NCBI RefSeq assembly: GCF_000003815.2
Contig: NC_049994.1
Coordinates: 1,370,626-1,434,625 of the forward strand
Length of the DNA: 64,000 nucleotides
From: Branchiostoma floridae
Taxonomy: Eukaryota; Chordata; Leptocardii; Amphioxiformes; Branchiostomatidae
Reading direction: 5' to 3'
Below are positions 1,859-63,300 of the stretch, in pieces. The notes under the pieces are model-generated. The model was not told where the DNA came from. It was given only the letters and a program-made list of their open reading frames with translations, and did not search any database. The translations under genes and the position numbers were made by a program. Position 1 is the first letter of the stretch, and each line of letters opens with the position of its first letter.

Positions 1859-2439
1859 TGTTGGACGCCCGTTTGAGGCACTTGACATGGTCACGTAAAA
1901 AAAAGATTAAAAAATTGCGGTGGGCTAAATCAGGCTGTCAAAGGTGTCCTTGTAATCTCCACGAGTTGTTCTATCTGCCTTGTGAATCTCAAGCGATGGA
2001 CTTTTACGAGAAAGTATATATTTGATGTCAAAGTTGACCGATTTTCGACAGCTTTTTCCTATGGTTTCGCCATTGTTTTCAAGCCGAAATACGCACCGTA
2101 TGGGGGTTTCGGGGTGTCCGCTTAGTGGGCGAGGTTCAACTGTTTCCGGGTCACGCTATACCGTTGCGGCAGTCACTCGGGACCTCACTCGGTAGTGTAC
2201 ACAAAGTACTTTTGATGGTGCTGTCAGCGTTTTATCATGTTACGAAGTAATATTGAAATGTCTTTCAAGTATAAGACAGCACTATGATCTGTAAGGTGTT
2301 ATTCCAATAGGTTGCGTCGTGGGTAAAGTGAACTGTAGGTAACGTTACCCGACGAAGGCTTTTTGCATCTGACTGTTAACTGTTGAAGATATTTAAGATA
2401 CATTGCTCGCGCCTGACTGAGGGATTAACTAAGATTAGA

Positions 2440-4060
2440 ACAGTATATAGCTAATCAATAGCGAAAAACGTGTTCAGAAGAGAAACTGTGCCAATTTGAA
2501 TGACACAAAAAATAGCGCCGTAAGAATTGTAACGTTATATAGCTAACTAGTAGCGGAAAACGTGTTCAGAAGACAAACTGTGTCAATTTGAATGACACAT
2601 CTAAAGGACCGTTGTGCGCTGCATTAAGTGTATATAGCTAACTAATAGCGAAGTGTAGTGATCAGAAGAGAAACTGTGTCAATTTGAATGACACACAGAA
2701 CAGTAAGAACTATAACGTTATGTAGCTACATGTAATAGCGCAAAACGTGTTCAGAAGACAAACTGTGTCAATTTGAATGACACACTTGCAGATAGCGCAA
2801 TAAGAACTGTATATAGCAAACTAATAGCGGAAAAAGTGTTCAGAAGACACACTGTGTCAATTTGAATGACACACTTGCAGATAGCGCAATAAGAAATGTC
2901 ATAGCTAACTCATAGCGAAGTGTAACGTGTTCAGAAGACAAACTGTGTCAATTTGAATGACACACTTACAGATAGCGCAATAAGAAATGTATATAGCTAA
3001 CTCATAGCGAAGTGTAACGTGACCAGAAGACAAACTGTGTCAATTTGAATGACACACTAGCAGATAGCGCAACAAGAACTGTATATAGCAAACTAATAGC
3101 GGAAAAAGTGTTCAGGAGACAAACTGTGTCAATTTGAATGACACACTTGCAGATAGCGCAATAAGAACTGTACATAGCTAACTCATAGCGAAGTGTAACG
3201 TGTTCAGAAGACAACTGTGCCAATTTGAATGACACACTTGCAGATAGCGCAATAAGAACTGTATATAGCAAACTAATAGCGGAAAAAGTGTTCAGGAGAC
3301 AAACTGTGTCAATTTGAATGACACACTTGCAGATAGCGCAATAAGAACTGTATATAGCAAACTAATAGCGGGAAAAGTGTTCAGAAGACAAACTGTGTCA
3401 ATTTGAATGACACACTTACAGGTAGCGCAATAAGAAATGTATATAGCTAACTCATAGCGAAGTGTAACGTGTTCAGAAGACAACTGTGTCAATTTGAATG
3501 ACACACTTGCAGAATAGCGCCAAAAAACTGTATATAGCTAACTTAAAGCATAAAGTGAGTTCAGAAGACTACCTGTGTCGATTTGAATGACACACCTATA
3601 GAATAAGCATTGTTACAACATGTATATATATTTAACTAACAGCGCAACGTGTTCAAGAGACAAACTGTTGTCAATTTGAATGACACATTATAGAACAGTG
3701 CTGTAAGAACTTTATATAGCAAACTAATAGCGAAAAACGTGTTCAGGAGGCAAACTATGTCAATTTGAATGACACACTTACAGAATAGCGCCGTTAAAAC
3801 AGTATTTAACTTACTTAAAGCGAAAAGTGTATTCAGTAGACTACCTGTGTCAATTTGAATGACAGATTTATAGAAAAGTGCTGTAAGAACTGTATATAGC
3901 GGAAAACGTGTTCAGGGGACAAACTGTGTCAATTTGCATGACATACTCACATTATAGCGCCGTAAAAACAGTACATAGCTAACCAATTTAAAAAAACGTG
4001 TTTAGGATACAAAATGTGTCTATGTGAATGACACATTCATAGAACAGCGAGGTAAATTTA
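2440..4060 (+). repeat. Left subrepeat array, 18 copies of ~90 bp
   Basis: I counted 18 copies of a motif close to gtgtcaatttgaatgacac, each a small hairpin (stem gtgtca/tgacac), at ~90-bp spacing. Each is followed by agatagcgcaataagaactg and tatatagctaact and preceded by gtgttcagaagacaaact. Copies at 2760-3500 are the most alike; those after 3900 decay. Minus-strand open frames here are repeat artefacts. Confidence 0.9.
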
Positions 4061-4129: not shown

Positions 4130-7100
4130 TTACTTGTGTGTCATATTAATTGACACAGTTGCCCTCCTAACGAAGTTTTCTGTTGTAAAATGGTTATATG
4201 CAGTTCTTACAGCGCCTTTCTTTAGGTGTATCATACAAATTGACACAGTTTTGTGTCCTGAACACATTAGCCGTTAAGATTTAGTCATACATTTGTATAC
4301 TATACGTTCGGCGCTATTCTACAAATGTGTCGAAACAAATCGACACAGCTGTGCTTTTGACTACGTTTTCAGCAATAAAGTTGTTAGGTACAGCCCAAAG
4401 TACACTTTTTACCAGTGTGTCATATAAATTGACACAAATTCTTTACTGTCCAACTTTTTCCGTGATCAATTTTACACACGTTAAACAGCGCTTTTCTAAT
4501 TGTGGGTGATATAGATTGACACAGTTGTCCCCCGGAAAAACGTTTTCCAATTTTAAGACACGGTTCAAACATCGCTTACAAAGGTGTCAGACAAATTCAC
4601 ACAATTTCCCTCCTGAAAAAGTCGTCCGCCATCAAGACAATTTTACACTGATTTCACATCGTGTTTCATAGTGTGTCATATGAAATAACAGTTGTCCTCG
4701 AGCTCCTGACAAGGTTTTCTGTCATTTGATACAGTTGTCGTACTGACCGTGAGGGTTTTCCGTTTTGTGAAATTTTAATAAGTTTTAAAAAACTTGTTAA
4801 TTGACACCGTTGTCGTCCCGACCAAGTCTTCCATCATTTTAATACTGTTTAATCATCGCACTAGTGTGCCATACTATCAGTGACAGTTGTCCACCAAAGT
4901 TTCCGTCATGAGGCAGTTTTATACTGTTTACCACTCGGTTATTAATTGCAAAGCCGTCCTCCTGACAAAGTTTTCTGTTATAAACTATTGTGTCAATTAA
5001 TGTGACAAACTAGCAAACTGAATAGATATGCCTAAATCGTATAATCATTCGATTGAAAAAGTTTTCGGCAGAGCGAGTTTTCCGTCATAAGATAGTTATT
5101 ATGCGTTTCAAAAGTGTGTCATATGATTGACACAGTTTTCAGCTCAGACAGCGCAGTACTAGATTTGACAGTTTACTTGAACAAGTTAGTATTTCAGTTA
5201 CTTTAAACCCTACCATGGTCCAAACTCCAGTAATCAGTTGTTAATTGATATGAAATAACCGCATCTAAAGTCATATATATACGAAGGAACGCCATTTAGT
5301 TCGTAAGAAGGGACCTTAGAACTTGTCTGACACACTTGCAGAAAAGTGCTGCCTGAACCGCGCTATTATGTAAGTGTGTCATTCATATTGACACAGTTTG
5401 ACTTCTGAACACGCATTAATATTCCGCTTTAAGTTAGCTATATACAGTTCTTACGGCACCATTATATAAGTGTGTCATTCAAATTGACACAGTTTGTCAA
5501 CTGAACGCGTTACACTTCGCTATGAGTTAGCTATGTACATTTCTTATTGCGCTACCTGTAAGTGTGTCATTCAAATTGACACAGTTTGTCTCCTGAATAC
5601 GTTTTCGGTATTAGTTTGTTATATACAGTTATTTGGGCGCTGTCTACAAGTGTGTCATTCAAATTGACACAGTTTGACATTTGAACACGCATTCCGCTTT
5701 AAGTTAACTATATACAGTTCTTACAGCGCTATTCTATAATGCATTGTGTCATTCAAATTGACACAGTTTGTCTCCTGAACATGTTTTTCGCTCCTAGTTA
5801 GCTATACACAGTTTTTACGGCACTATCATGTAAGTGTGTCATTCAAATTGACACAGTTTGACTCCTGAACACGTTTTTCGCTATTAGTTAGCTATATACA
5901 GTTCTTACGGCACTATTATGTAAGTGTGTCATTCAAATTGACACAGTTTGACTCCTGAACATGTTTTCCGCTATTAGTTAGCTATATACAGTTCTTTTAG
6001 CTTTGTTCTATGAGTGTGTCATTCAAATTGACACAGTTTGACATTTGAACACGCATTGCGCTTTAAGTTAGCTATATACAGTTCTTACAGCGCTGTTCTA
6101 TGAATGCATCATTCAAATTGACACAATTTGTCTCCTGAACACCCTTTTTCGCTATTAGTTAGCTATATACAGTTCATTCAGCTTTGTTCTGCAAGTGTGT
6201 CATTCAAGTTGGCACAGTTTGACACCTGAATACGTTTTCCGCGATTTCTTAGCTATATACAGGTCTTACATTGCTGTTCTATAAATGTGTCATTCAAAGT
6301 GACACATTTTGTCTGCTGAACACGTTTATCGCTATTAGTGAGCTATACACAGTTCTTACGGCGCTATTATGTCAGTGTGTCATTCAAATTGACATAGTTT
6401 GTCTCCTGAACACGTTTACGCTATTAGTTAGCTATATACAGTTCTTACGACACTATTATGTAAGTGTGTCATTCAAATTGACACAGTTTGACTCCTGAAC
6501 ACGTTTTCCGCTATTAGTGAGCTATATACAGTTCTTTTAGCTTTGTTCTATAAGCGTGTCATTCAAATTGACACAGTTTGACATTTGAACATGCATTCCG
6601 CTTTAAGTTACCTATGTACAGTTCTTACAGCGCTTTTCTATAATGCACTGTGTCATTCAAATTGACACAGTTTGTCTCCTGAACACGTTTTTCGCTATTA
6701 GTTAGCTATATACAATCCTTACGGCACCATTATTTAAGTGTGTCATTCAAATTGACACAGTTGGACTCCTGAACACGTTTTTCGCTATTAGTTAGCTATA
6801 TACATTTCTTTCAGCTTTGTTCTATAACTGTGTCATTCAAAGTGACACAGTTGGACTCCTGAACACGCATTGCACTTTAAGTTACCTATATACAGTTTTT
6901 TTTACAGCGCTGTTCTATGAATGCAACATTCAAATTGACACAGTTTGTCTCCTGAACACGTTTTTCGCTATTAGCTAGCTGTATACAGTTCATTCAGCTT
7001 TGTTCTATAAGTGTGTCATTCAAATTGACACAGTTTGTCTCCTGAATACGTTTTCGCTATTAGTTTGCTATATACAGTTCTTTGGGCGCTGTCTACAAGT

Positions 7101-7880
7101 GTGTCATTCAAATTGACACACATTGACATTTGAACACGCATTCCGCTTCAAGTTAACTATATACAGTTCTTACAGCGCTATTCTATAATGCATTGTGTCA
7201 TTCAAATTGGCACAGTTTGTCTCCTGAACATGTTTTTCGCTCCTAGTTAGCTATATACAGTTCTTACGGCACTATCATGTAAGTGTGTCATTCAAATTGA
7301 CACAGTTTGACTCCTGAACACGTTTTCCGCTATTAGTTAGCTATATACAGTTCTTTTAGCTTTGTTCTATAAGTTTGTCATTCAAATTGGCACAGTTTGA
7401 CACCTGAATACGTTTTCCGCGATTACTTAATAGCTATATACAGGTCTAACATCGCTGTTCTATAAATGTGTCATTCAAAGTGACACATTTTGTCTCCTGA
7501 ACACGTTTCTCGCTATTTGTTAGCTACATATAGTTCTTACGGCGCTATTATGTAAGTGCGCCATTCAAATTGACATAGTTTGTCTCCTAAACAGTCGTTT
7601 ATCGCTATTAGTTAAGCTACATACAGTAGTACGCGCTATTATGTAAGTGCGCCATTCAAATTGACATAGTTTGTCTCCTAAACAGTCGTTTATCGCTATT
7701 AGTTAAGCTACATACAGTAGTACGCGCTATTATGTAAGTGTGTCATTCAAATTGACACAGTTTGTCTCCCCAAGGAGGTCTCCCAAACACGTTTTCCGCT
7801 CTTAGTTCCCTGTATACACTTCTTACAGCACTGTTCTTTAAATGTGTTATTCAAATTAACACAGTTTGTCTCCTGGTGTC
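4130..7880 (-). repeat. Right subrepeat array, inverted, ~28 good copies plus decayed ones
   Basis: This is the same unit as the left array in reverse orientation (gtgtcattcaaattgacac, then agtttgtctcctgaacacg and agttagctatatacag). About ten diverged copies occupy 4130-5130, and 28 clearer copies run from 5374 to ~7860. Two adjacent units (7551-7736) are virtually identical, a recent tandem duplication. The array breaks near 7780 and is followed by unique inverted-terminal sequence. Confidence 0.88.
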
Positions 7881-24351: not shown

Positions 24352-24912
24352 NNNNNNNNNNNNNNNNNNNNNNNNNNNNNNNNNNNNNNNNNNNNNNNNN
24401 NNNNNNNNNNNNNNNNNNNNNNNNNNNNNNNNNNNNNNNNNNNNNNNNNNNNNNNNNNNNNNNNNNNNNNNNNNNNNNNNNNNNNNNNNNNNNNNNNNNN
24501 NNNNNNNNNNNNNNNNNNNNNNNNNNNNNNNNNNNNNNNNNNNNNNNNNNNNNNNNNNNNNNNNNNNNNNNNNNNNNNNNNNNNNNNNNNNNNNNNNNNN
24601 NNNNNNNNNNNNNNNNNNNNNNNNNNNNNNNNNNNNNNNNNNNNNNNNNNNNNNNNNNNNNNNNNNNNNNNNNNNNNNNNNNNNNNNNNNNNNNNNNNNN
24701 NNNNNNNNNNNNNNNNNNNNNNNNNNNNNNNNNNNNNNNNNNNNNNNNNNNNNNNNNNNNNNNNNNNNNNNNNNNNNNNNNNNNNNNNNNNNNNNNNNNN
24801 NNNNNNNNNNNNNNNNNNNNNNNNNNNNNNNNNNNNNNNNNNNNNNNNNNNNNNNNNNNNNNNNNNNNNNNNNNNNNNNNNNNNNNNNNNNNNNNNNNNN
24901 NNNNNNNNNNNN
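24352..24912. other. Assembly gap (561 N)
   Basis: Run of N. Open frames reported across it carry no information. Confidence 0.99.
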
Positions 24913-27125: not shown

Positions 27126-27370
27126 TCAATCCCAAAATTCTCCTCTTGTTGTAGCAGTTGAAGAAAGACCTTTGAAGATGATAATGGTTGCAGCAGTTTT
27201 TTTCTTAATTTTCATTTTGCCCACGCACTCCATCGATTCTTGAAAAATTTGAGAATCGAGATATCAATCTCATTCTGGTATGACTTAAAGGTACAAATAA
27301 AGGTACAGAAATAAGTAAATAGATACAAGAATCAGAGAAGGATCAAACACTTGACTATGTTGTATTGCAG

Positions 27371-30300
27371 GTATCGTGTTCTGACTGCTCTATGGATGGG
27401 AACTGTGTAACCAACATGGCGACCGTTCCCAATCACAAGCCCGCAAACCTGGGCGAGCTCCAGCTGTACCGCGTGCTACAGCGCGGGAACCTGCTGCAGT
27501 ACTTCGACGTGTTCATCTCGCAGGGTGGAGACGACGTGCAGCAGTTGTGTGAGGCTGGGGAGGAGGAGTTTCTGGAGATCATGTCGCTGGTTGGGATGGC
27601 CAGTAAACCCCTTCACGTCCGCAGACTCCAGAAATCCCTTCAAGAGTGGGTCACCACGCCCGCGCTATTCCAAGATGTCATTCCGACCTCGCCCCACCAA
27701 ATTCCCATTCCTCCGGGCGTGTCGTTGGGGATGGCCAGTCAGCAGGCGCAGGCCCAACAGGTGTCGCCCATGTCGTCATCGTGGTCGCAGTCGTCTGTAC
27801 GAGACGGACCGCTGGCGATGCAGCCGTCGCCTCCGTCGCCAGGCAACAACAGCCTCTCCCTGCCCCCCACCTCCACCACCCCCCCACAGCGGTCTATGTC
27901 ACCATCGAGTGTGGGGCGGAGCTCCAACAGCTCCCCGGTTCTGAACATGTACGAGTCAAGCATCCTGGAACCCAGCACTGCAGCCGCCATTAAGGAGGTT
28001 GCGTACGCTATCGTGCTGACTACGCGGAAGGACGGAGAAGAGCTCCCCAAATCGTTGCCAAAGAAACTGGAGAAGCAGCTGCGGAATGTGATTGAGATGT
28101 CTGAGGAAGACCCCATGTTGGAGGAGGAGGTACGGAAGTGGAGTGCCATCTACGGCCGCTTTGACTCCAAGAGAAAGTCTGAAAAACTCCTGACATTACA
28201 TGAGGTAAGCTGAGGGCTTGTGTTGTAAGAGTCAATTTCCTGCATTTATTTGTATGTGATGTTATATGTACTAGTATTACTATGACTTGTGCTGCATACT
28301 TCACTTGTAGATTCAGGAATCAGGTCCAGAGATTCAACATGTGTGCCAGAAATTGCTTTTTTCAGTTGCCTTTCCCCTGCAAATTTCATACACAATCTAT
28401 GCAAGGTTCAGAAACTAGACATGGTAACATGGAAATTCATGACTTGTATTGACTGATGTTCAGTTTTTTTGTGTTTTTTCAACTTGAACTCCAGAAGGGT
28501 TATTTTCCAATAGATAAGTATCGAAAACATTTTGTCGAACATTTGCGGTAATATACTCTTAGAATGTCATGGGTTAGACCATTATTTACTTGTTTGATTG
28601 TCAGGTAGGAGGGTTGGTGAGTTTTTGTTTGGTCCGTCAAATGAACCGTTGGTTGCTTGGTTATGTATACATAGTTGATACGCACATGTAGTTGATTTGT
28701 TGGATGGTTTGCTGCTATGACCCATAAAAAGGATAAGGGATAGGAGAGGTGAGATGAGTTGAGGTGTGTTGTTCGCTGCATTTTTGTTGTTGTTTGAGTT
28801 CATAGTTGTAAGAGTTTCCCCCCATTACCCATGCATTGTATGTACATATGTATGTATGTATGTATGCATTGGAAATTCCAGTGTTTGAAGAATTTACCAG
28901 AACCTGGTATGGTGTGGCTCCAATTTTAGAGTTGCAGAATACCTAGTATTTGTCCCTCTTGCTTTCCTTCAAAATACTGAGAACCATTGAATTAGTGTTG
29001 TAATGGATGATGGAAATGTCACAAAGTTGAAGTATGCATCCTACAAGCCATATAGTTACCCTGCTGGCCATACACTGGCCAAGAAGGAATGTTGTCTGTT
29101 ATCCTGTAAAAAAGTTTTCCTTTGACGTCAATGTAGCACTGGGGAGCTGTACCAAAGTCACCCATGGTACATCCATGGTACATCAAGGATTTCTCACCAG
29201 TCAATCGTCCAATGACAGACGGAGGTACTTTTCCAACCTTCTCCCTGCTGCCCTCCCTTTGAAGCTTCATCAATCCAAATTTGGTGTCATGGGAGTGCTT
29301 CTGCAGGGTCCGCTAAACAATTCAACCTAAAGACATATCTCCTGTGGCAGTCCTGTTTTCCTTTGTCTACGTAAAATTTGGTCTTCAGATCTACAAAGTC
29401 GTCTCTTCTTGATGACGTTCCCCATATATTGTATATATGATTCTCCACTATATCCCTTCCCATAACTAGTTAAAAAAAGCAACAGGAATTCTTAACTAAC
29501 TTCAGAGTCAGAGCTATTAGAAACTGCTAAAGTTAGTTCCTTTAGACTCTTTTGAGTCGAAGGCTCTTTTCACACTTTGTGAAATCAGTTCAGGTTAGTG
29601 CTTTAATAGATTGAATCAATATATCAACTCAATTTATTGCTAGATAAATATAAGATAGAGGAAAAGTTTGAAAAAACAACAACAAAGTGCAATATATTTT
29701 TGCCAAAAGATTGCAGGAATACATTTTAGGTGTCCATGATTATCACAGATATATATTAGTGTATGATTCAGTATCTTTCTCACCTAGGATAGGAGCTGGA
29801 TGAAACAAAGACAAAATTTAGAATAAACATTTTACTGCCTTCACTTATTAAGAATAAGATATTAACATCAGACAGGAGAATGCCAACTATCTTTCTCGGT
29901 GTGTGTTCCTCTGGTCTTGAGTTCTCCACACATGTAATTTAAACATTAGCCAATTTTTTTCACTTGAAGCAAAATCCTGCATTAGTTTTTCTACACCAGG
30001 GCATTTTTCTGGCTCACTCTACCTTGATGTAACCCACTAAATGTGACTAATGTACCCAGGAGGGGAGGAGATGTCCCACTGAAGGGACTCTACCTGTCAG
30101 TCTGTCTGCATCAAAGTGGGGAACAAGGCCTTATGGGACATGCCACCTTTGCTCTCCTCCCCAGGGCACCTAGCAGCAGCCTTGAAAAGGGGTTCCACCT
30201 CTGCTCTCCTCCCCAGGGCACCTAGCAACAGGCTTGAAGTAGGCCAAAAGGGCAATCCATCTTGAAGAATGGTAGGAGGATGGGTTAGCTTGACTTCCCT

Positions 30301-44700: not shown

Positions 44701-47700
44701 TTTCTATTTCAAAAGGATGACTTGCAGTTACGATATGATAACACCAAGGAGGTTATATAGAGATTTACACACAGAAACATTTTTAATCATCCGACAGGGA
44801 TGTTACTTTCTTCTGGTTTGTGATTTGTGTGGCCACGGATTTCAGTGGGTTTTTATCATTTTTACCAGTTCGCCAGGAAGGTTATGTTTTGGGTAGCGTT
44901 TGTACGTATGTATATACGTCTGTATGTATGTTTGTATGTAGAAGACCAGCATAACTCCTGAATGGGTTGTATTGATATTTGGTATGTGGGTAGGTCTTGA
45001 TGAGACTTGCAAACGTTTAGCCCCCTAGCGGCATGTTACGGTACTGCAGCGGAATTTTCGGGATTGATATCTCGAGTTCTGGACTTGCTGTGGCTATGAT
45101 TTTTTATTTTTATCATATTAGCCCTTTTAGGATTTTGAACCTCCTTGGTACTTGTTATAATGATGATGGTACAAGCTATAGGAAATGGCGACAGTTCTGC
45201 TACGGAGGGAGTGATGGTACGGTGTTCGGTCCAGATCCTAGGTCCTGGGTTCAAATCTCCTGGCATACCTCATTGCCGTTCGATGTTGATTGTTCCCTTG
45301 GAGAAGGCATCTTCACACGACTTTCTTCACTTATGTTATCTAAGTTAAATCTGATTTTGCACAATCTTTATGTTTATGTTACTTAAGTAATTTGGTTTAA
45401 TAGAGCTTTATGTATGATTGTGTTATTCAAGTTAATTTGGTTTTCTTGCATTTTATGTATGACTTATTTTCGGGGTTCTCCCCCAGAGGGCTTTGAAAAA
45501 TGCCGTCAGGTGATATGCTTTAACCCTGGTTAGATAAAGAATAAACAAACAAACAAACAAACAAACAATGAAGATGAGTAGCCAAGAGTGGTGAGGGCCG
45601 TCCCTTGGATAGGACGTTGAATGCCGAAGGTCCAGTGTTCGAACCTCCTTGGATGGGGACCACGTAAAAGAACCCGTCGCATTGTCAAGAAGAGTAGCGA
45701 TGGAATAAACCTGTCCGGAAATACTCTTCAATACACTGTGGTGTCACTGACGAAAACTACTCGATAGTAGTTGAAACGTCTGACCGTTTCCAAAACCATA
45801 TCCAGTTGCTTGAGTAACTACATTTTGGCAAAATGTGGTTCGTCATGAAGCGGTTTACCGCAACGGAACACAAACAAGCAAACAAACAAGCAAAAAATGT
45901 TGGAACGTGGGTAGATGATAGCGAAGCCAAAACGAAGGCCAATGGCCCCCTAGCAGTTTTTAAAGGCACTTGCTGTTTTGATACCTATGGTCCTGGAAAT
46001 GCTATGTTCGTGATTTTTGAGTGGCAGATACCACTTTAGCTTGCGGAAGAGGGCAAGTGGTGTAGCGCCCTCTCGGGACTTTTCAAACTGTTTTGGAAAC
46101 TGTTTCAGACTCAATCCGTGAATGTTTTCTTACCTCATTCTCTCCACCCGAACGTACTTACAACATCAAATCTCGGTGGATGTTTTCTGACAGAATCCAG
46201 TCCCGGAAAAAGCGACGTATCCGCTAAACCTGGTGACGTCAGAGGGTCCGTGCGGAGCCACGCCCCTTCACATCGCCGTGACGTACGGAGACGAGGCGCA
46301 CCTGGAGGCGGCGGACATTCTCATAGACAACGGCGCGAACGTGAACGCACGGGACAAGGTAGGGTAAAGTTACGTCAGAACGTGAACGCACGGGACAAGG
46401 TAGGGTAAAGTTACGTCAGAACGTGAACGCACGGGACAAGTTAGGGGTAAAGTTACGTCAGAACGTGAACGCACGGGACGAGGTAGGGGTAAAGGTACGT
46501 CAGAACGTGAACGCACGGGACAAGGTAGGGTAAAGTTACGTCAGAACGTGAACGCACGGGACAAGGTAGGGGTAAAGTTACGTCAGAACCTGAACGCACG
46601 GGACAAGGTAGGGGTAAAGTTACGTCAGAACGTGAACGCACGGGAAAAGGTAGGGGTAAAGTTACGTCAGAACGTGAACGCACGGGACAAGGTAGGGGTA
46701 AAGTTACGTCAGAACGTGAACGCACGGGACAAGGTTGGGTAAAGTTACGGTCAGAACGTGAACGCACGGGACAAGGTAGGGTAAAGTTACGGTCAGAACG
46801 TGAACGCACGGGACAAGGTAGGGTAAAGTTACGGTCAGAACGTGAACGCACGGGACATGGTAGGGTAAAGTTACATCAGAACGTGAACGCACGGGAAAAG
46901 GTAGGGGTAAAGTTACGTCAGAACGTGAACGCGCGGGACAAGGTAGGGGTAAAGTACGTCAGAACGTGAACGCACGGGACAAGGTAGGGGTAAAGTTACG
47001 TCAGAACGTGAACGCGCGGGACAAGGTAGGGGTAAAGTACGTCAGAACGTGAACGCACGGGACAAGGTAGGGGTAAATTTAAAGTTACCTCAGAACGTGA
47101 ACGCGCGGGACAAGGTAGGGGTAAAGTTACGTCAGAACGTGAACGCGCGGGACAAGGTAGGGTAAAGTTACGGTCAGAACGTGAACGCACGGGACATGGT
47201 AGGGTAAAGTTACATCAGAACGTGAACGCACGGGACAAGGTAGGGGTAAAGTTACGTCAGAACGTGAACGCGCGGGACAAGGTAGGGGTAAAGTTACGTC
47301 AGAACGTGAACGCGCGGGACAAGGTAGGGGTAAAGTACGTCAGAACGTGAACGCACGGGACATGGTAGGGTAAAGTTACATCAGAACGTGAACGCACGGG
47401 ACAAGGTAGGGGTAAAGTTACGTCAGAACGTGAACGCGCGGGACAAGGTAGGGGTAAAGTTACGTCAGAACGTGAACGCGCGGGACAAGGTAGGGGTAAA
47501 GTACGTCAGAACGTGAACGCACGGGACAAGGTAAGGGTAAAGTTACGTCAGAACTTGAACACACAAAACAGGGCACGGATAAAGTTACGACAGAGCGATA
47601 ACGCACAGGACTAGATAGGTCCTGTAAAGTTACGTTGATCGTGAACGCACAAATCAGGGTACAGGTTACTTACGACATACACGTGTAAAGTGAACACACA

Positions 47701-48364
47701 GGACTAGTACTAGGTACAGGTAAAGTTTCGTCAGATCGTGAACGCACCGGGCAAAGTTAAGTTCGAACGTGAACGTACAAGACAAGGTACCGATAGCTAG
47801 TTACGTCAGAACGTGAACGCCCGGGACAAACATGTAGTATTGTTAAGGTACGCGGTACAATGTACATGTAATGCACAAAACAAATTAAGGTTCAGGTCAA
47901 GTTACGTCAGAACGTGAACGCGTGAAAATATGGGTGACGTTGCGTTAAAACGTAATTTTTTAAACTCTGCTTGATGTCTAGTAACTTTATGCTTGTTATG
48001 ACTCTACAGTATAGGATGTTGTACAACTTGCTGGATGTCAGAATCGTAATTCTCACTCCGGATTATGACGTCGACAGTGACTAAAATAATTTTTCCTGCC
48101 TTATTTTGCATTTAATATGTCATTCAAGAAATGCTTCTGTTAACATTTCTGACTCATGTTAGTCTTGGCTTTATGATATCTAAGAAGTTGGAGGTATTGA
48201 GTGTGAATGAGTGAAGAATTTGTGCAGTTTATCTAACTTTGTTCTTCTCTTACTTAGAACTGGGACACGCCCCTGCACCAGGCTACCTACCACGGGAACA
48301 ACAAAGCCGCACGGCTACTGGTGCAGGCAGGGGCAGGGTTGGATAACCAGAACAAGGTGAGCTG

Positions 48365-48448
<84 letters not shown>

Positions 48449-49087
48449 CTAATCAATCAGTTAGTTAAGTAGTCAGCTAGTCATTTAATCAGTACCATAA
48501 TGTCAATTCATCAGCCAGTAAGTCAATCAGTAAGTCAGTCAGTTAGTTAGTCCATAAATCAGTCAGTCAATCAGTCGGACATGATCAGTCAGTCAATCCA
48601 TCAGCTATTCAGTCACCAATTTGACCAGTAAATCGGTACGTTAGTCAATGAATCAGTCAATCAGTCAGTCAATCACCAGTCAATCAATCAGCTAATCAGT
48701 AACCAATTTGATCAGTAAATCAGTAAGTTAATCAATCAATCAATCAGTCAGTAAGTCAATCAGTTAACCATCCATCTATCCATCAATAGATTGATCGATA
48801 AATCAATCACCAGTAAACCTGATAGGTTATTGATGAATCATCATCTTTTTAAGTTACTAGAGGTACACTTGATAAATGCTGGCACATCTTGAGCGAGAAT
48901 AACCATGACTTTATCCTGAAATGATTTAGCATATTAACATGATAATTCTATGATATTCCAGAAGGGAAAGCTCCCTGAGGATCTTGCCTTTGAAGAGAGT
49001 ACACCTGTGGGGTGTAAGAGTCCGAAATCACGGAACAGCCTGCTGAAGGGAAGACAGAGAATTCTTCATATCATCAAGAGAATCAAG
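41795..49087 (+). CDS. Ankyrin-repeat protein
   Basis: Coding exons 41795-42061, 42607-42709, 46194-46358, 48258-48356 and 48962-49087, with GT-AG junctions and matching phases (2, 0, 0, 0, 0). The ~253-residue product has an acidic/basic N-terminus ([11 protein letters not shown], then [14 protein letters not shown], a possible nuclear signal), then ankyrin repeats: [77 protein letters not shown] Lys-rich end ([12 protein letters not shown]) follows. Ankyrin repeats mediate protein binding; the partner is unknown. If the last donor (49088) is not used, the frame closes after VCRK at 49100-49102. If it is used, the phase permits joining to the C17orf98-like exon at 50985. The third exon's 3' end seeds the minisatellite that follows. 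Confidence 0.85.
45165..45340 (+). mobile_element. tRNA-derived SINE remnant
   Basis: A degenerate tRNA head ending in a B-box-like cctgggttcaaatctcctgg (~45243) is followed by the shared tail (gagaaggcatcttcacacga, ctttcttcactta). Confidence 0.55.
45480..45690 (+). mobile_element. Two retroelement ends: (AAAC)n-tailed piece and a tRNA-like head
   Basis: The first piece ends ctttaaccctggttagataa and an (aaac)n run (45538-45566), the style of a retroposon tail. From ~45584 a tRNA-like unit follows (gggccgtcccttggatagga ... ccagtgttcgaacctcc, B box at ~45634). Confidence 0.5.
46338..47940 (+). repeat. Minisatellite made of an exon/intron boundary, ~29 good copies of 41-42 bp
   Basis: The first unit is the last 21 bases of the ankyrin exon ending at 46358 (aacgtgaacgcacgggacaag, coding NVNARDK) plus 20-21 intron bases (gtaggg(g)taaagttacg tcag). 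This whole unit recurs head to tail: 29 well-conserved copies up to ~47540, then decayed copies to ~47940. Nearly every copy retains the donor aag/gtaggg and ends in a cag before the next aacgtg. Variants come in blocks (gcacggg / gcgcggg; ttacggtcag; gacatgg), showing higher-order duplication. The last good copy has the stronger donor gtaagg. Confidence 0.93.
48362..48830 (+). repeat. (ATCA)n microsatellite and degenerate tail
   Basis: Starts 5 bp after the donor of the fourth ankyrin exon. Nearly pure tcaa repeats run to ~48457, then a long region of decayed cagt/caat words to ~48830. Confidence 0.9.
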
Positions 49088-49267
49088 GTATGCAGAAAGT
49101 GAGATGTCAATCAGCAAAGGAAATATTCTATTTACTTTGCAAAATGTAGGTTTTCTAGTTATTACTGTACTCTAGTTGTAACTTTGTATTCAATGACATG
49201 GGTTGAAAATCTCGGGGACAAAATTCCTGATCAGATTTCATGATTAAACCATGCAGGTAAGTAAGGC

Positions 49268-49393
49268 CATATTAATCTGATAATCATAATGAATGACATT
49301 CTCTTGGAACCTCAAAACAGTTTGAAAGAAAAGTTTGGCCCCAAAATGTTACCTTTATCATTGTAAGTGGTCAGGAAGGTTGAGCAAATGACT
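49268..49393 (-). repeat. Interspersed repeat, same family as 27000-27125
   Basis: In reverse it shows gtcatttgctcaaccttcct, gaccactta, ccaaacttttct and ttgaggttccaagagaatgt, paralleling 57753-57895. Confidence 0.5.
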
Positions 49394-49494
49394 GTGTACT
49401 GTGTATCCAACAATAGATTCTTGCCTTTAGTTCTTTCACTGTTTATTCTTTGATTTTAGAATTGATAAAAAGACGTTAGTATCCAGTTCCGGGT

Positions 49495-49575
49495 ATAAGC
49501 AGATACGCAGTAAATTGCAAAACAGATATTGGGATTCCCAATATCTGTTTTGCAACTTACTGCGTATCTGCTTAT
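49495..49575. repeat. Near-perfect 81-bp palindrome
   Basis: Arms of 40 bases (49495-49534 and 49536-49575) pair with a single mismatch around a one-base centre (ggga t tccc). The arm begins ataagcagatacgcagtaa. It stands alone, 170 bp before a MITE, with no matching copy noticed elsewhere in the window. Confidence 0.92.
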
Positions 49576-49744
49576 ATTTTGCAGCAGCTTTGCAGGACCG
49601 AGCTACTATATGGTCCAAAAATGTGAAGTGCATGCATATGTGAATGTCATCCATAATTGTTTTAATCAAATCAACATGGTCTGAGCAATTAAATGCCTCT
49701 GAGATATGAAAGAACATGAAGCCATCGAAATGTCTCATCGTGCT

Positions 49745-49957
49745 TAACGCTAGTTCACCTTTATCCGCAGGGTAACCTATATCCGTTGCTTTTAAAGACA
49801 TTTAATTTAGGAATACCAAGTCGACGGACAGAGGCTTCAAACTGCAATACTTGACAAATATGTACAATTTGAAACCATGCATTGATATCCCTACGTTACC
49901 CTGTTCTCAAACACAACGGATAAAGGTTACCCGGCATATAAAGGTGAACTAGCGCTA
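49745..49957. mobile_element. Palindromic MITE, GTTCACCTTTAT family, copy 4
   Basis: Left end taacgctagttcacctttat then ccgcagggtaacctatatcc; right end mirrors it (ggataaaggttaccc, aaaggtgaactagcgcta). The best-preserved ends of the four copies. Confidence 0.85.
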
Positions 49958-50195
49958 TAAATGTTGGGTAAATTTGTAACCATACAACCCGAATGGGTTT
50001 GGTCTAAATATTAAGAACTCTGTTGACACAGTACAGAGTACAGTGCAAAGTATCAAATAACCTTGTCTCCTATTAACAAACCTAATGAAATGGACCTGGG
50101 TCCTGTTGTTTAAGCTGTTAGTGTTGACCATGGAAAAGCATAATTTGGTTGTTATTTGTGGTACATGTGCATGGTGTCAAATGGCCATGTAACAG

Positions 50196-50325
50196 TTACA
50201 TGTTACTGTTAATGGATGTGAGAACAAAAGGTCATGGGTTCGATTCCTGCCATTCTTCACTAGACATTGTGCCTTTGGTAAATTTACTCAACAAAACTTT
50301 CCTCACTCCACACTGTTGTAAAAAT
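50196..50325 (+). mobile_element. tRNA-derived SINE fragment
   Basis: B box gggttcgattcctgcca at ~50235, followed by the tail cattgtgcctttggtaaatt and aaaactttcctcactccac, shared with other SINE pieces here. Confidence 0.6.
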
Positions 50326-50555
50326 ATCTGACTTTGGTTAGGAAGGTAAAAGGTGGTGGAAGGAGAGAGCTTATTAGCCTGGTTACCAAACCCCAGCCCG
50401 ATCTGAAGTATCTATCGTGCACTATCAACACGAAAGATATTTGAGGTTGGGGTATGGTATCCAGGCTAGAGAGGGCTGGGGTCAGACTTCCAATACAGAG
50501 TGGGTAACAACCCACTTCCCCTATGGCATCTTTTTTCTTTACCTTTTACCTTTTA

Positions 50556-50849
50556 GGTGGGGTCACACATGCGTATATATTCAAGTCCGTTTTAGGTGCG
50601 TATGAAGCTCTTAGTCTCTACCAGGCTCCACAGGTCGCAGGGAAAATAGTACAAATTGGACAAATATAGAAACATAACAAATTGCCAGATGAGTTAGCTG
50701 ACCGAGAAGTATGGTTAGCGACCAAGCTAACTCGTCTGACTTGCTACCTGTTTATTTTTCCAGCGACCTGTGGGGCCTGGTGGAGGCAAATACTCCCATA
50801 CGCACCTCATATATACGGACTTAAATATATACGCAGGTGTGACCCCACC
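50556..50849. mobile_element. Palindromic MITE with GGTGGGGTCACAC ends
   Basis: ggtggggtcacacatgcgta then tatattcaagtccg at the left; cggacttaaatatatacgca then ggtgtgaccccacc at the right. Inner arms also match (ctccaccaggc-type and cacaggtcgc / gcgacctgtg). Confidence 0.85.
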
Positions 50850-50966
50850 TTTTGTGTGAACATTGAGTGACTGTCTTCTACAATATCTACCGTAACAGTA
50901 ACTCGCAAAATAAAGTAGATGTCACACACATAGTCCATTCTTTCAGCCCCTTCTGAACTAATTTGC

Positions 50967-53684
50967 ATGTTCTCCGATGCCCAGGAAAACGCGGAGAGTG
51001 CCAGTTTCGCTCGCTCGTCTCACAGGATGAGTCGTCCTGCCAGGAGACCAATCAGGTTCAGCGATTTCCCTCAGAAATCGCCCGAAGAACTGCGTGTGTT
51101 GGAGAGACGTTTTGTTCTGGACTGTGTGGCTGTGGCCAACATCTCACAGGACTATGGGAAGGTACCTTTTAGAAAAATAATTTAACATATATCATAGAAT
51201 AACACATTTTGATTTGTTTCTGTAAAACCAGAAATTTAAGTTCAACTTGTTAGTAGCAAATTCAGTATTGTATGTATGTAGGCATCCGTCCATCTTGGAA
51301 GATTAATTAATATTGATTTATTAGTATGGGCCATGTCTGGCAGATTACAAGGCCAATATTTGTTAACTACATGATGTCCCTGTACTTGTTAGTAGCAAAT
51401 TCAGTATGTATGTATGTAGGCATCCGTCCATCTTTGAAGAATTTGATTTATTAGCATGGGCCATGTCCGGCAGATTACAAGGCCAATATTTGTTAACTAC
51501 ATGATGTCCCTGTACTTGTTAGTAGCAAATTCAGTATGTATGTATGTAGGCATCCGTCCATCTTTGAAGAATTTGATTTATTAGTATGGGCCATGTCCGG
51601 CAGATTACAAGGCCAATATTTGTTAACTACATGATGTCCCTGTACTTGTTAGTAGCAAATTCAGTATTGTATGTATGTATGCATCCGTCCATCTTGGAAG
51701 ATTAATTAATATTGATTTATTAGTATGGGCCATGTCCGGCAGATTACAAGGCCAATATTTGTTAACTACATGATGTCCCTGTAGCTCAACTGGTAGCGGC
51801 CTCACAGTTGAGCTCCTGATTCCAACTAGTAGGTGACTGGAAGGCCGCAGACCAAATCCAGGAAATTATAGGGATTAGAATTCTGGTTAGAGCTGCAACT
51901 GTCTGACAGAAGGGATGTAAAATGAGCCCGGGGTACAATGTTTTGAGAAGGTGCTTTGAGCACATAACAACAGCTCATTACTCAAATGTGTAGTAATTCA
52001 TGTAGTACAATGGATATAACTATGGGTGACCGGTACTACACCGTTTTTTCTTATTGGACCAGTCCAGAAAAAAGGACCTGAAAAATTTGGTGGACTGGAT
52101 GTTGGACTGACTGAAAAATGAACAGATTATATGATCAGGCATTCACACATTTTTGGGCTTACTGCAGCTGGTTGAACGAAAATAACAAGACCGAAGTAGC
52201 ATAGAGTCTATAACGTTAGTTATTTCTACCTTGCTCTACATTCAATCGCACAGATCTAGATGCAGTTAGCCTTGTAGGATTTTACAATGTCATTGTTTTG
52301 TTTACACATTCTGAATCAGGTCCTGGAGGTTCGGGTTTAGGCCCTCTGGACCTGAACCAGATAGACCTGGACCTGAATTTTCTGTACCAGCACTTATTAT
52401 TATTACACACCCTGCAGTTCAGGTTTACATGTACAAGTATCAGTCCGGATGATCCATCATTGTGGAGATTTTGTTCCAATCCAGGCCAATCCGAAGATGG
52501 GTACGGCCATCCCTCCCTACAATGCACAGAAGGACAAACATGTGGAGCCTTACTTCAACTTTTATGGAGTCAAAGATGTACTGAAGACTACAGGACAAGT
52601 TTGTACAACTTTCCACTGTGCTTTGGAATTTTCTTTTTAATTTGACATTTGTATTGTTTGTATGATGTACTATAATTGGAGTTCTTGTTTTTGTAACTTT
52701 TGTGATAAAAGTCAGTACTGATGCTTACATTGCAAGACCCTCAGTATATCAGACTTAGATGTTCCATGTAGTTCGAGTATCAATTTGATACAAGTAACGT
52801 TACATTGCTTGAAGTGAGTTTTGATGTTTTTTTTCTTTTTGTTCAGTATGGAAGTAAGAGTTCCTCAATCGACGGTCCCGTCATCGACCGGTTTGTCGGT
52901 CTGGGTAAAGGATATCAGTATCTGTCCAAGCGGAACAAGTTTGGAGCTGGTAAGGGAACATTGTCAACTTGATTGTGAAAAATCTAATGTGAGCAGGTGA
53001 AAAAAAAGTTTGACAAAATCTATGTGGTGAGGAAGGCTGAACAAATGACTTAACATGCATGGTACACAATATTATGGATTAAATTTCTTGACTTTGGCAA
53101 TGGGCCAAACATTGACCTTGATCTTTAGCAAGTATCCCATTGAAAACTACCCTTATACTGAAAATTCCAATATAATGCTGACACGGAACATTAATCTTAC
53201 GAATTTTAGGGTTGATCGTGAAATCAGCCTTTGTAGTGTGCTTGTCTGTGAAGTGAATTCACAGCCTAATTAATTCTGCTCTAAACCTGTATTATCAAAT
53301 TGACCAGGATCTTTATCAATCATCCCATTGGAACCAAGCATCCTTGTTATTCTATGATGATAGACCACTATTTAACATAACATTGTTGGGAAACATGTTT
53401 CCTTTTTCTGGTATATTGAGCCAAGCTTACAGATCAGTGTTCTCACACATTTTGTTGTCTCTTCAGGACACTCCAGGGAAGCGACAGACGGTCACGGACA
53501 GTTCATGACAGGCGTACAGCCCATGTTTGGGTACCGCGGCTTGTACGGATACCGAAGGAACACGCCCTGGCTGCGAAATATCCCCTCCCCCTTTGGTGTG
53601 GATCCTCGGTCACCCCTGCACGCCAGGGAGCGACTTCCACCGATTTATTACCGTCGCCAGTTAGGCTGGGCGGCTAGCATGTGA
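50967..53684 (+). CDS. C17orf98: C17orf98-like protein (ciliary/sperm-type)
   Basis: Exons: first exon to 51161 (ATG at 50967 or 51027), 52485-52598, 52847-52949, 53467-53684, with GT-AG junctions and matching phases. From 51027 it gives 189 residues. Diagnostic blocks agree with my recollection of human C17orf98: FVLDCVAVANISQDYGK, AIPPYNAQKDKH, GLGKGYQYLSKRNKFGAGHS, GYRRNTPWLR. The N-terminal RPARRPIRFSDFPQKSPEEL and C-terminal RLPPIYYRRQLGWAASM ends are extensions beyond the human protein. The human gene is testis/cilium-associated and poorly characterised; a role in axonemal structure is inference. The exon may instead be preceded by an acceptor at 50984 (gatgcccag/gaaaac), in phase with the ankyrin gene's last donor. 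Tandem repeats and an old MITE fill intron 1. Confidence 0.88.
51245..51786 (+). repeat. Four tandem copies of a ~130-bp unit
   Basis: Units start at acttgttagtagcaaattca at 51245, 51384, 51514 and 51644 (spacings 139, 130, 130). Units 2 and 3 are almost identical; units 1 and 4 share an extra attaatt segment. Each contains a tatgtatg run. Confidence 0.92.
51780..51995 (+). mobile_element. tRNA-derived SINE remnant
   Basis: Begins tgtagctcaactggtagcgg, a tRNA 5' half with A box. The later body (gtctgacagaagggatgtaa, gaaggtgctttgagcac) is of the SINE type. It abuts the tandem array, so the array may have arisen next to it. Confidence 0.55.
52025..52395 (+). mobile_element. hAT-type MITE copy in C17orf98-like intron 1
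   Basis: Parallel to 33448-33887: gggtgaccggtac, ttcttattggaccagtcc, ggacctg, gtggactggatgttgg, acctgaattttctgtaccag. Ends are decayed, with no clear target duplication. Confidence 0.8.
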
Positions 53685-57336: not shown

Positions 57337-60300
57337 TCAGAAGGGTTTGGCGTCCTTGTCCACAAACTCCAGGTTGAGAAGCTTGTTGACATCTATGTTG
57401 TCCGTCAGGTTTTCCGAGGAGAGATTTGATAACTCACTCAAGAAGTCGTCAGACATGTCTGCCTCGCCACCATTGCTGGGAAATACAGACAGACAAATTA
57501 TGCATGTTTCCTACATGTATGGATGTGTCATATATGTAATACTATAGTTACATTATGTATCAATGATAATTATGTAATGATAGTCTATTAACTTAACAGT
57601 GTAAGGCAATGTTAATTCAACAAAATGGATAACATCCATGCATGCATCAGTTTTCGCTTGTGCAATTTATACCATCTTGTAAACTGTACAAAGCAGCTGT
57701 GAAATGAGCAAATACACGACGTGTACATCACTGTATGTTCCATACTCTGTCATTTGTGCAACCTTCCTGACCACTTAGACTTCATTCTGTGGAATTGAAG
57801 GCAACTTTTTTACTTGCCAAACTTTTTATGCACACTCACATCAGTTTTGAGGTTCCCAGAGGATGTCATCCATATATTTGAATCAACATAGCCTAAGGTT
57901 GCACCACGATCTTAGTTCTCATATGTTTGCATGAAAATAGTGAAGCAGTGGAGCAAAACAAAAATTATATCAATTTGGGTGGAGTTAGCCCTGCATCAAA
58001 GTAAGGTTTCCTCCCTGGCTAATTATAAATTGGCACATTACTCACTTGTCATTGTTTCTCACAAATATATGAAGACAGTACTGGAAGTGCATTAAATATT
58101 GATAGCTGGGTATGGAAGAATTTCTCCACATAACATTCAGGTCCACATCTAAAGCAACATGATAGTGACAGCTGGCCAACAAACAACACTGTTTCCACTT
58201 TCAAAACTGAGAGGGTTAGCTGCCGTCAAAGTAAAGGCAAGAAAGGCCCATCAGCAAAGGACTCCAAACCAGCAGACTTGCCATACTCCTGCAGTGGAGT
58301 GGCTGTCCATCAACAAAGCAGAACATGTTTGGCACTTTCAGAGAAAAACATTTATTTCCTGCCATATTCCTATATTGCCTATACATAGAAATGCAAAACA
58401 ATTTGCTTGGACATTATTGCCAAAAAGTGCTTTTTGAAATAACATCTACAAAATTTGTAAAGGACATAAAAGGCTTGAAATGCCTGGAGAATCAGTTGGG
58501 CTGATACTTCTTTGGTGTACTCTTTTCTAAACTCAAGAAGTGCGGGTGCTGTCTAATTTGGGGGTGAAGCCGGCAAGCATTGTGCAAGTTTTAGTGGTGT
58601 ACCGCAGTGTGCAACGTGGAGTCAAAATCACCAGAGCGGCATAACGGACCATAAGACTTCCAAAACTGAGGCTTTTTCTTTCTGACTTTCCTTCATGATT
58701 TGGCTAAATTCTTTAGAAAAATTCCAGCCATGTGGTGTATCTAATTTTTGTATTTCCTTTGATAATTACTGCACTGTAAACAACATACCACATGCAAACA
58801 TGGACTAGCTACACAGCTGTTATTTTCCTACAGAGATTTGCAATAGATATCAAATAGTTTTGTGTGTTTATATTAGTTACCTTTTATTACTGACTTGTAA
58901 TAATATAACATTCAGAATTTTCTTGTCTTTTGAACTTCGCAACCTGAAATGCTGGTCTATAGTTTAATCCAAGTTGTAAAATGTAAAAAAAAAATCTGAT
59001 TTCCTGTTTCTTGAATTGATATTTTAAACTCTGTAACTCCTTTCGGCAAGTTTCTCTACAGTGTAAATTAGTGATATTCCAGATGATCATGTCTGCCAAA
59101 AGCTAATAAGTTCTTTTGACGTTTTAGTCGGAAATAGTTAAAGAAAAAAAGAAAAAGACCAGCACCAGCGTAAGCATCATGTCACGTGGAACAGAATGGG
59201 TAAAGTAAGTACCGGAAATGTAAAGGAGTGTATTCACCCGTCAAAGTCAGCTGGTCCGCAGGCCCCGAGCATCTCAGAGTCCGGACTCATGATGGTGGGT
59301 TTCTCTGTGGGGGAGGTGGGCCCCTCCATGGGGAGGGGGGTGTTGGGGTTGTCATAGGTCATCGGGGAGGCGATGGGAGGGGGTAAGGTTTCTACTGTTG
59401 CCTTCAGGGCCGCGGGAACGTAGCCATCATTCTGGGGGTTCTTCTCTGTAAAATGCACAGAAAAATCTGATTATATTTCAATCATTTTCCGTTATTATTA
59501 ATAGTATCATCATGTAGCGTTGGTGCTTATCAATTATTAATAATAATATTATCATGTTTCTTAAATTGTGGTGTCAGTGTGGCGTACATAATGGTTAGAG
59601 TGTGAGGCTCATGATCAGAACCAAAAGATCCTGGTTTGATACTTGCCATGCACCAACATGAGTGTGTGAGTGGATCATATATCAGATCAGAACCAATAGA
59701 TCTGATGAATCAGACAGAACCAAAAGATCCTGGTTTGATACTTGCCATGCACCAACATGAGTGTGTGAGTGGATCAAATATCAGATCAGAACCAATAGAT
59801 CTGATGAATCAGACAGAACCAATAGATCCTGGTCTGATACTTGCCATGCACCAACATGAGTGTGTGAGTGGATCATATATCAGATCAGAACCAATAGATC
59901 TGATGAATCAGACAGAACCAATAGATCCTGGTCTGATACTTGCCATGCACCAACATGAGTGTGTGAGTGGATCAAATATCAGATCAGAACCAATAGATCT
60001 GATGAATCAGACAGAACCAATAGATCCTGGTCTGATACTTGCCATGCACCAACATGAGTGTGTGAGTGGATCAAATATCAGATCAGAACCAATAGATCTG
60101 ATGAATCAGACAGAACCAATAGATCCTGGTCTGATACTTGCCATGCACCAACATGAGTGTGTGAGTGGATCAAATATCAGATCAGAACCAATAGATCTCA
60201 TGAATCAGACAGAACCAATAGATCCTGGTCTGATACTTGCCATGCACCAACATGAGTGTGTGAGTGGATCAAATATCAGATCAGAACCAATAGATCTCAT

Positions 60301-63300
60301 GAATCAGACAGAACCAATAGATCCTGGTCCGATACTTGCCATGCAGTGACATTGTGCCTTAGGGAATTAGGCACTACACACATGTTGTACATGTACATTT
60401 TGTAAACTAACACTGTGAACCTGTGGTGAGATCAATGGCATATTGGTATAAAGAAAGAGTAGGGGTCCTTCCTGGTGTGAGTGGATCAAATAAATCTATT
60501 CAGATATGCTTGTACTCTTCAGGTGTGTTATACCATCAGGCATTATACTACATGTAGGTATGCCAAACAAAGAAACAACTGTACACATGTGCATATATCC
60601 CACCTCGAATAGGTGTGTAGTACTTAGAGAAGGCCTCGTCTTTAGGAATGTCGGGGTACAGGTTGACCAGATGAGGCAGGTCGTGGATACGGTCAGCCAG
60701 GGAACGAATCCCGAAGTCCCGCGTAGTGAACGGCTGCAGGTTCCACACCTGTCTTTCACCTGGATTGTGTCATACACAAGTCAACAGGTTCAACTTACCT
60801 TAACTACTACAAAATAACTACAGAATACTCAGTCTTTCACCTGGATTGTGTCATACACAAGTCAACAGGTTCAACTTACCTTAACTACTGAAAAATATCA
60901 ACACAGATGTACCCAGTCTGTGAAATATTTAGGGTTTTTGTAAATTTCTTGTTTAAATTTCTTTTGCTTTAAGACAGTGGTTCATCTTGTTAATAATCTC
61001 TGGGCTGTTTTAACTTCCTTCATGCATGTGGATAAAATCGATGCATGGACATCTTTCTGTGACCAATCTTCCACCTTTAACCTAAAACTTTCTGCTAGCA
61101 TCCAATGTACCTAGCACTTCAATGACAATACCCAAAGTGAGGGCAGACAATAATGGGTACTACAAAACCTTCAATTCACAGACTGAGGTACTCATTTTTT
61201 TAGGGAAGTTGGGACAGGCCAATGTCCTATTTTCCACAATGTAAGTTATTGCACTTTCAAAGATACATGTGTAATAAATAAAAAAGTCAATAATATGGTG
61301 TCTCCTGTTGTCAATGATGGATGCGTTTTGGCACTTAATACAGTCATGTACATTATTTGACAACTTCAGCAGGGGTTCCTCAGAGTTTTATGGAACACAC
61401 ACAAATGTTGGATTTAGAATATCATGGATTAACTCACTTGGGTTATTTGGGTCCTGGGCTACCCATGCGATAGTGATGCCCCCTATCTCTGAATCACTGA
61501 AGCGCAGCAGAAAGGTGCCATTCTGTTTGGACATCAGCATGGTGTCCCTGGCTCTGTCTTTGTTGACAAAACCCAAGATTGTCCTGTTACAAAAAGATGA
61601 CAGACACCATCTATCAGTTTTGAATCAAAAGATGACCAATTCTTACAAGATACATCTAACAGTTAACTCAAAGGACTGTTGTCTGAAACATCTGACTTTT
61701 TCCAAAGTCCAGCAAAGTATGTGCCAACGGATTACATTCCATAAAATCCTCAGTAAAAGTTATTACAAACATGCATAATCACATTTTGTTTGAAAGCTTA
61801 AAAATACTAGACTAAGTTCAAATATAGCAATGACAGAAAGACAAAGTATGTTGACAAGCAATAATGCACATAGAATTTACAAGAAAAAAGTAACTGGCAG
61901 TGCATGTACATGTATTTTCATAACATAACATGTAGTTGAATTGTCATGACTGTACAGTACCCATCCTCCCATGGTCCCTTCAGGTTCTTCTTGGTCAGCT
62001 CCATCACCCCATCAAACCACTGCCAGAAGGTGAAGCTCCTGTTGGGCTGGAGAGGCTCCTATGGAGGAAAAATGTACATTTTTTGTTGTTTATTGTTGTT
62101 TATTAAGAAACCTTTTAGCCCTTACAGGCTAATCTTCCAAGGTTCAATCAATCAACATGACTATACACCATACATTTAAAAAAAATAAAATAATCAACAA
62201 TCAAAGTATTTACAATAGAGCACAGTGTCTAGAGGTCAAAGGTCTAGGTAACAATGTTTGAGATAGCTTGTTTAAAACTGGACAATGTACACAGTGACTT
62301 AAGGCCACACCAATTTAATTTCTTGGTTCACGGATTTTTTCATAAAAAATATGGAGCGAGAGGGCGAAATAAAAATAAAAATTGTAAAATGGTTGGGGTA
62401 AAGGTAACGGCTAATCCAAAACATAAAGAAAAAAAGTTTTCAGCTTGAAAAAAGTACAAAAACACTATTTTTGTACAGTAACAGCACCTGTACCCACTCT
62501 TTAAGGAGCTTATAATATAAAGGCCAATTTGCTACACCAGAAAGTTGGTGAATGGTTTCATTAATGGTGAAAATTTGCTGAGTGGTAATTTTTATTTTTA
62601 TTTTTTTTTCCCAAAAAATAGGAGCGAGCGAATCCGTGAACCAAGAAATTAAATCGGTGTGGCCTAATTGCTCGGTACAGGAAGGTACGTTTTCCACTGT
62701 TTGTTTTAGGTTTGGGTATTTTTTATCATCATATAGCCAGATGATGTTGAGCAATCAGAAGTCCTCATTACATTTTATAGAAGTGCCACTGTTTAGAATC
62801 ATATGAATCTCCAGGTTTCTGAAAGAAATTTCCAATCAGAAGGAGAGTTACAAAGGTTATTGACCAATCAGAATTACACAGGGCATTGACCAATCAGAAT
62901 AACACCTAGCAAGGAGAAATGATCACATAAACTTAGGAGGAATCATCATGAATAGAACAGATATTATCAAGATTGCAATGTAACAAATATCTTGAAGTTC
63001 TTAACCGTGGTTAGCAAACAAAATTGAATCAATATTGAATCAAGGGTTACTGGTTACTATCATGGAGGATGTTACTCACTGGCTATTTTTCTTCTACTCT
63101 TACATTGAGAGGAATTCATCCACAATATTTGCTTATCATAGCCTAAATTCTGCGCTCTATGGCAAACTGACCTTGTTGAACTGCGACCAGGAGATCTTCG
63201 ACTGTCCAAAATCTTCCGACTCAGGAGGGTCTACGAGGAAACCAGGCAGAGTTTTATTAGCAACAAATATTCCCATGCTCTCAACATTTCAGAAAATGAA

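Follow-up and report, generated by a model that had tools for sequence, protein, structure and literature searches.

A donor-side minisatellite across an ankyrin exon/intron border in Branchiostoma floridae

The intron at 46359-48257, between two ankyrin exons of the cephalochordate Branchiostoma floridae, is mostly occupied by a tandem array whose unit spans the exon-intron border: unit 1 consists of the last 21 bp of the exon and the first 20 bp of the intron, and is followed by 28 more copies. (Coordinates are those of the window, i.e., the whole 64,000-nt stretch of DNA that was analysed.) We consider it very probable that this array is a ‘mirage’, in which a segment of about 41 bp was duplicated across the border, the exon-side donor is the one used, and the array is neutral. 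The mirage phenomenon is already published; the ankyrin array is a long, clean donor-side example that is newly described here. As judged from its sequence, the array most likely leaves the protein unchanged.

The array and its host exons

The features that bear on this interpretation are as follows.

46194-46358, plus strand: ankyrin exon (NPVPEK...NVNARDK), which begins and ends in phase 0, with AG before it and GT after it; the joint frame is open
46338-46378, plus strand: unit 1; it holds a TAA in the exon frame at 46365-46367 and, at 46359, the GT of the authentic donor
46379-47551, plus strand: units 2-29, near-identical copies of the border (41, 42 or 48 bp) inside the intron
47178-47343, plus strand: units 21-24, a four-unit block that recurs exactly in units 25-28
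47344-47509, plus strand: units 25-28, second copy of the four-unit block
47552-47922, plus strand: about 7-8 decayed copies of the unit (nhmmer, E 0.00018 to 1.9)
48258-48356, plus strand: following ankyrin exon (NWDTPLH...NQNK); 88% of the 17 bases scored at its acceptor are pyrimidines

Read unit by unit, positions 46338-47551 contain 29 near-identical tandem units of 14 sequence types, of which 10 are 41 bp long, 18 are 42 bp and one is 48 bp; these are the 29 good copies of the roughly 29-fold minisatellite that the original prediction had placed across the ankyrin exon/intron boundary. Tandem Repeats Finder (TRF) reports a single array of period 42, which runs from 46337 to 47650 with 31.3 copies and 91% matches (score 2112). 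The exon half measures 21 bp in every unit, and reads AAC GTG AAC GCA CGG GAC AAG (NVNARDK) or a near copy of it, while the intron half, which mostly starts with GTAGGG, is 20 bp in 10 units, 21 bp in 18 and 27 bp in one, such that the proposed composition of 21 exon bases plus 20-21 intron bases fits 28/29 units. Retention of the splice signals, also predicted, is extensive: GT is kept in 28/29 units (copy 3 has TT), AAG/GTAGGG is exact in 22/29, and TCAG forms the terminal bases of all 29. Units 1 and 2 have the same sequence. On the intron side, degenerate copies extend to approximately 47922, close to the predicted array end of 47940; nhmmer picks them up in nine pieces, several of them individually weak (E 0.00018 to 1.9), and they bring the total to some 36-37 copies. 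The E values of the 29 units against their own profile (3.3e-12 to 1.6e-15) are circular; the best score for that profile in the rest of the window has an E value of 4.1.

The exon half of unit 1 continues the ankyrin exon without a break and is therefore the real exon end, and the two ankyrin exons, once joined, match Pfam Ank with an E value of 1.2e-15. Five exons (46194-46358, 48258-48356, 50985-51161, 52847-52949 and 53467-53684) place the ankyrin exons in phase with SPMAP1-like exons (Pfam PF15075, E 3.9e-29), and the two sets form one open frame to a stop over 46194-53684. From these reading frames, a fusion gene of ankyrin and SPMAP1 across 46194-53684 is possible; so is a separate SPMAP1-like gene, with a Met codon at 51027. 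A TCAA microsatellite of about 24 copies (48365-48459) starts 8 bases past the first intron base at the donor of the 48258-48356 exon.

Donor sites, reading frame and splicing

Donors were scored with a matrix of vertebrate frequencies and by pairing to the U1 5′ end. On this scale the authentic donor (46359) scores 9.28, with a U1 pairing of -9.7 kcal/mol, and its 9-mer recurs unaltered in 21/28 later units. The donor of unit 29 is stronger (11.26; -10.0 kcal/mol), that of unit 4 is nearly equal (9.07), those of units 13, 21 and 25 are weaker at 7.28, and that of unit 10 is weak (4.55); an extra GT within unit 4 (46495) scores 9.34 with poorer U1 pairing (-6.4). Altogether, 24/29 units have a donor that lies within 0.3 bit of the authentic one or above it. 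On the plus strand of the window, 45 GT sites equal or outscore the authentic donor, and 24 of these fall inside the array, compared to 0.41 expected from the density outside it. Computational scoring thus bears out the expectation of a ladder of near-identical 5′ splice sites, in that 22/28 downstream donors equal or exceed the authentic site (21 being identical and that of unit 29 stronger). With so many rivals scoring at least as well, exclusive use of donor 1 would have no explanation in the site itself.

In the frame of the exon, the intron half of unit 1 reads GTA GGG TAA, so that splicing from any of donors 2-29 (28/28) would bring a stop two codons beyond the exon end; donor 1 alone gives an open frame. 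It had been proposed that use of a downstream donor adds intron-coded residues, with the 42-bp copies remaining in frame. That proposal fails whatever the spacing of the later units, because unit 1 is a 41-bp copy that already contains the in-frame TAA. The same stop terminates all 28 donor extensions and so excludes the idea that the ankyrin domain is lengthened by translating units beyond the exon end.

Bearing in mind both the strength of the downstream donors and the early stop that every one of them brings, we weighed the alternative that the ladder is partly used, that the resulting transcripts include the TAA of unit 1 and are lost to nonsense-mediated decay, and that array length thereby tunes output. 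Agreement with this idea comes from the 22/28 downstream donors that match or surpass the authentic one, that of unit 29 doing so in both score (11.26 versus 9.28) and U1 pairing (-10.0 versus -9.7 kcal/mol); furthermore, RT-PCR on stable mRNA, the approach applied to other mirages (PMC3087553), could overlook decayed forms. However, the published mirages are said not to disturb splicing (PMC3087553, PMC3902484), and we regard decay tuning as unlikely. It is similarly doubtful that the share of transcripts lost to decay depends on the unit count, such that a hypervariable array would alter output between individuals, perhaps between cells.

The only in-frame, open additions that the array could supply are internal cassettes: 52/406 acceptor-donor combinations qualify, among them all 28 single-unit cassettes. 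The internal 21-bp exon halves might then act as micro-exons that add NVNARDK units to the ankyrin domain, in which case cDNA would carry NVNARDKNVNARDK. Such cassettes would require internal acceptors, and these have poor pyrimidine tracts: the 29 acceptor-like unit ends contain 29-53% pyrimidine (mean 35%) versus 88% at the acceptor at 48257. This measure alone is indecisive, since the real acceptor at 46193, in the same gene, likewise reaches only 53%. Two further considerations count against micro-exons, namely that seven added residues would disrupt the 33-residue ankyrin period, and that introns of about 20 bases between adjacent units would be too short for splicing; we judge this possibility to be exceedingly slight.

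We hypothesize instead that the mirage arose when a segment of about 41 bp straddling the ankyrin exon/intron border was duplicated in tandem. The exon-side copy would have stayed joined to the exon while the remaining copies were displaced into the intron, and the mRNA would be normal provided that the exon-side donor is used; only donor 1 would be expected to yield stable mRNA. The array would then have grown and become homogenised through slippage or unequal exchange, the decayed intron-side copies presumably being older, and it would be neutral.

Probable expansion of the array

Units 21-24 are the same as units 25-28, i.e., one four-unit block of 166 bp is present twice, and an equally long repeated run appeared in 21/5000 shuffles of unit order. 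Such block-wise variants point to repeated expansion of the array, in line with what had been suggested from them originally, and the doubled block is indirect evidence that its copy number is unstable. Units 1-29 are clean, and decay is found at the intron-side end. Tandem arrays are often mis-sized, and it could be argued that the length of this array, or the array in its entirety, is an assembly error. We consider this very unlikely: ordered block-wise differences and decay toward one end are not the product of random mis-joining, and arrays of like kind are found at other genes in the same assembly (see below).

When the array was searched against the whole assembly (513,431,437 bases in 431 contigs, with only the best candidates scored and very common words skipped), all 16 matches lay in the ankyrin exon and the array; among these best candidates, no paralogous array was seen elsewhere. 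Variation among the exon halves comprises five distinct changes, of which four alter the amino acid, so there is no sign of coding constraint, although so few events make for a weak argument. On the same grounds, the idea that selection acts on these exon halves was considered and set aside, as four of five distinct changes are nonsynonymous, bearing in mind that five events prove little. A comparison of exon and intron diversity (0.042 versus 0.152) was discarded, because inconsistent gap placement in the length variants inflates the intron value.

Border-spanning arrays in lancelets

Tandem repeats over exon-intron borders have been published in lancelets as mirages in Adh3, globins and PGBD5 (PMC3087553, PMC3902484). 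The Adh3 mirage was described in B. floridae and B. lanceolatum by Canestro et al. (2002, Nucleic Acids Res; via PMC3087553 and PMC3902484), and, like the ankyrin array, consists of short units (10-72 bp) repeated in tandem over an exon-intron border; the ankyrin array differs in its gene, its unit and its 29 good copies. Globin mirages have also been reported, and RT-PCR together with the Adh3 data is taken to suggest undisturbed splicing; the clusters are unstable in length, at Adh3 even somatically, and have been proposed as a source of new introns (PMC3087553). BflGb6 has 150-160-bp units, with 6 copies in one haplotype and 3 in another, and BflGb9 a 157-bp repeat at the 3′ border of exon 2 (PMC3087553). 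These share with the ankyrin array border-spanning units, block-wise concerted evolution and an inference of normal splicing, whereas their units are longer and their copies few; moreover, BflGb6 repeats the acceptor side, while the ankyrin array repeats the donor side in 41-42-bp units. In PGBD5, 60-bp and 108-bp repeats abut or overlap the 5′ and 3′ splice sites, and copy number varies between assemblies; unlike the ankyrin units, the copies are imperfect and number 2-7, and one gene model took the repeats as exon (PMC3902484, where troponin C is also mentioned). Outside lancelets, intron gain in potato RdRp (PMC4974935) similarly involves tandem duplication that multiplies splice signals. 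In contrast, the ankyrin array has created no new intron, the duplication having occurred at an existing border. In the open-access literature, we found no publication on the ankyrin array itself.

Comparable arrays also occur at other genes of this assembly. At one globin locus (L017), a 158-bp x 4.2 array lies over the acceptor of the exon, which fits BflGb6, and at another (L013), one of a pair on contig C7, a single duplicate, offset by exactly 157 bp, runs across the point where the exon match ends on its 3′ side, which fits BflGb9 as described (PMC3087553). At a third globin locus (L016), a direct duplicate of about 80 bp (1751-1830 and 1867-1947, 81% alike, offset approximately 116 bp) lies just beyond the end of the globin exon match (1722) and overlaps the end of the open frame (1779); it may be a further border duplicate. 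One exon at an ADH-family locus (L019), probably that of Adh3, has a 59-bp x 6.9 array over its acceptor (1122-1526) and, over its donor, a ladder of 33-bp units (x 9.8; 1712-2035). At another ADH-family locus (L036, approximately 1571-2125), a 143-bp x 3.8 array crosses the border of a different exon; the parts of the published mirage accounts consulted (PMC3087553, PMC3902484) make no mention of it.

The placement of the globin matches agrees with the map published for B. floridae; the arrays at L017 and L013 speak for that species more strongly. On contig C4, some 4 kb separates two matches, and a third lies at a distance of about 290 kb, where BflGb1 and BflGb2 are given as 2.3 kb apart and BflGb8 as 276 kb from BflGb2 (PMC3087553). 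The two matches on C7 are 42 kb apart on opposite strands; BflGb5 and BflGb9 are described as head-to-head at 40 kb, the authors adding that trace data suggest head-to-tail (PMC3087553). Our search returned 9 matches versus the 15 genes listed in that paper, and no second globin turned up on C18 in the exon-by-exon search, although BflGb12 is placed on the BflGb6 scaffold (PMC3087553). Misses of this kind are to be expected because exons were searched one by one.

Are exon borders special? With arrays defined by TRF (period at least 9, score at least 60), 9.0% of the window outside the ankyrin array is covered, and in the flanks of 62 family-match loci, some of which overlap and are counted twice, arrays occupy 3.1% of bases (5793/186000). 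The 62 loci derive from three family searches, one contributing the best 30 of its 173 matches. Four border-crossing arrays were detected by TRF at 3/62 loci, a sample that is biased in that globins and ADHs were picked because mirages are known in those families; with L017 and L019 set aside, the count is 1/60. TRF also undercounts, having missed the two-copy 157-bp duplicate at L013, which was found by self-alignment (applied to the 9 globin loci only). Over at most 124 borders this amounts to about 3% or somewhat more, approximately the array density, and no excess of arrays at exon borders is shown for these 62 loci by TRF. With 9% of the remaining window lying in arrays, the border location needs no special cause. 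The simplest account would be that minisatellites arise genome-wide, and that selection retains those border cases that keep a working exon-side copy.

Other arrays were noted in the window. A 99-bp x 7.4 array at 59616-60345 (98% matches) is open throughout as 33-residue repeats (244-aa frame), but, 99 being a multiple of three, this may be due to chance. Arrays of one 89-90-bp unit, which has 18 plus-strand and 31 minus-strand matches, occupy 2437-4035 and approximately 4136-7875 in opposite orientations as a large inverted pair. The window also contains part of a gene for a NAB-family transcriptional co-regulator (27323-28213; SAM_NCD1, E 3.4e-43; NCD2, E 6.3e-20) and a run of 561 N (24352-24912), which is either a gap in the assembly or a withheld stretch; RNA-family and tRNA scans of its 64,000 nt were empty.

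In model pre-mRNAs, a splicing factor can reportedly shift choice to proximal 5′ splice sites, as Krainer is said to have described in 1990. If the published mirages are a guide, the exon-side donor of the ankyrin array wins among two dozen near-equal sites, which would make this locus a clean natural test of splice-site choice. It raises the questions of how the exon-side donor wins, and of whether transcripts from the other donors are made and then destroyed.
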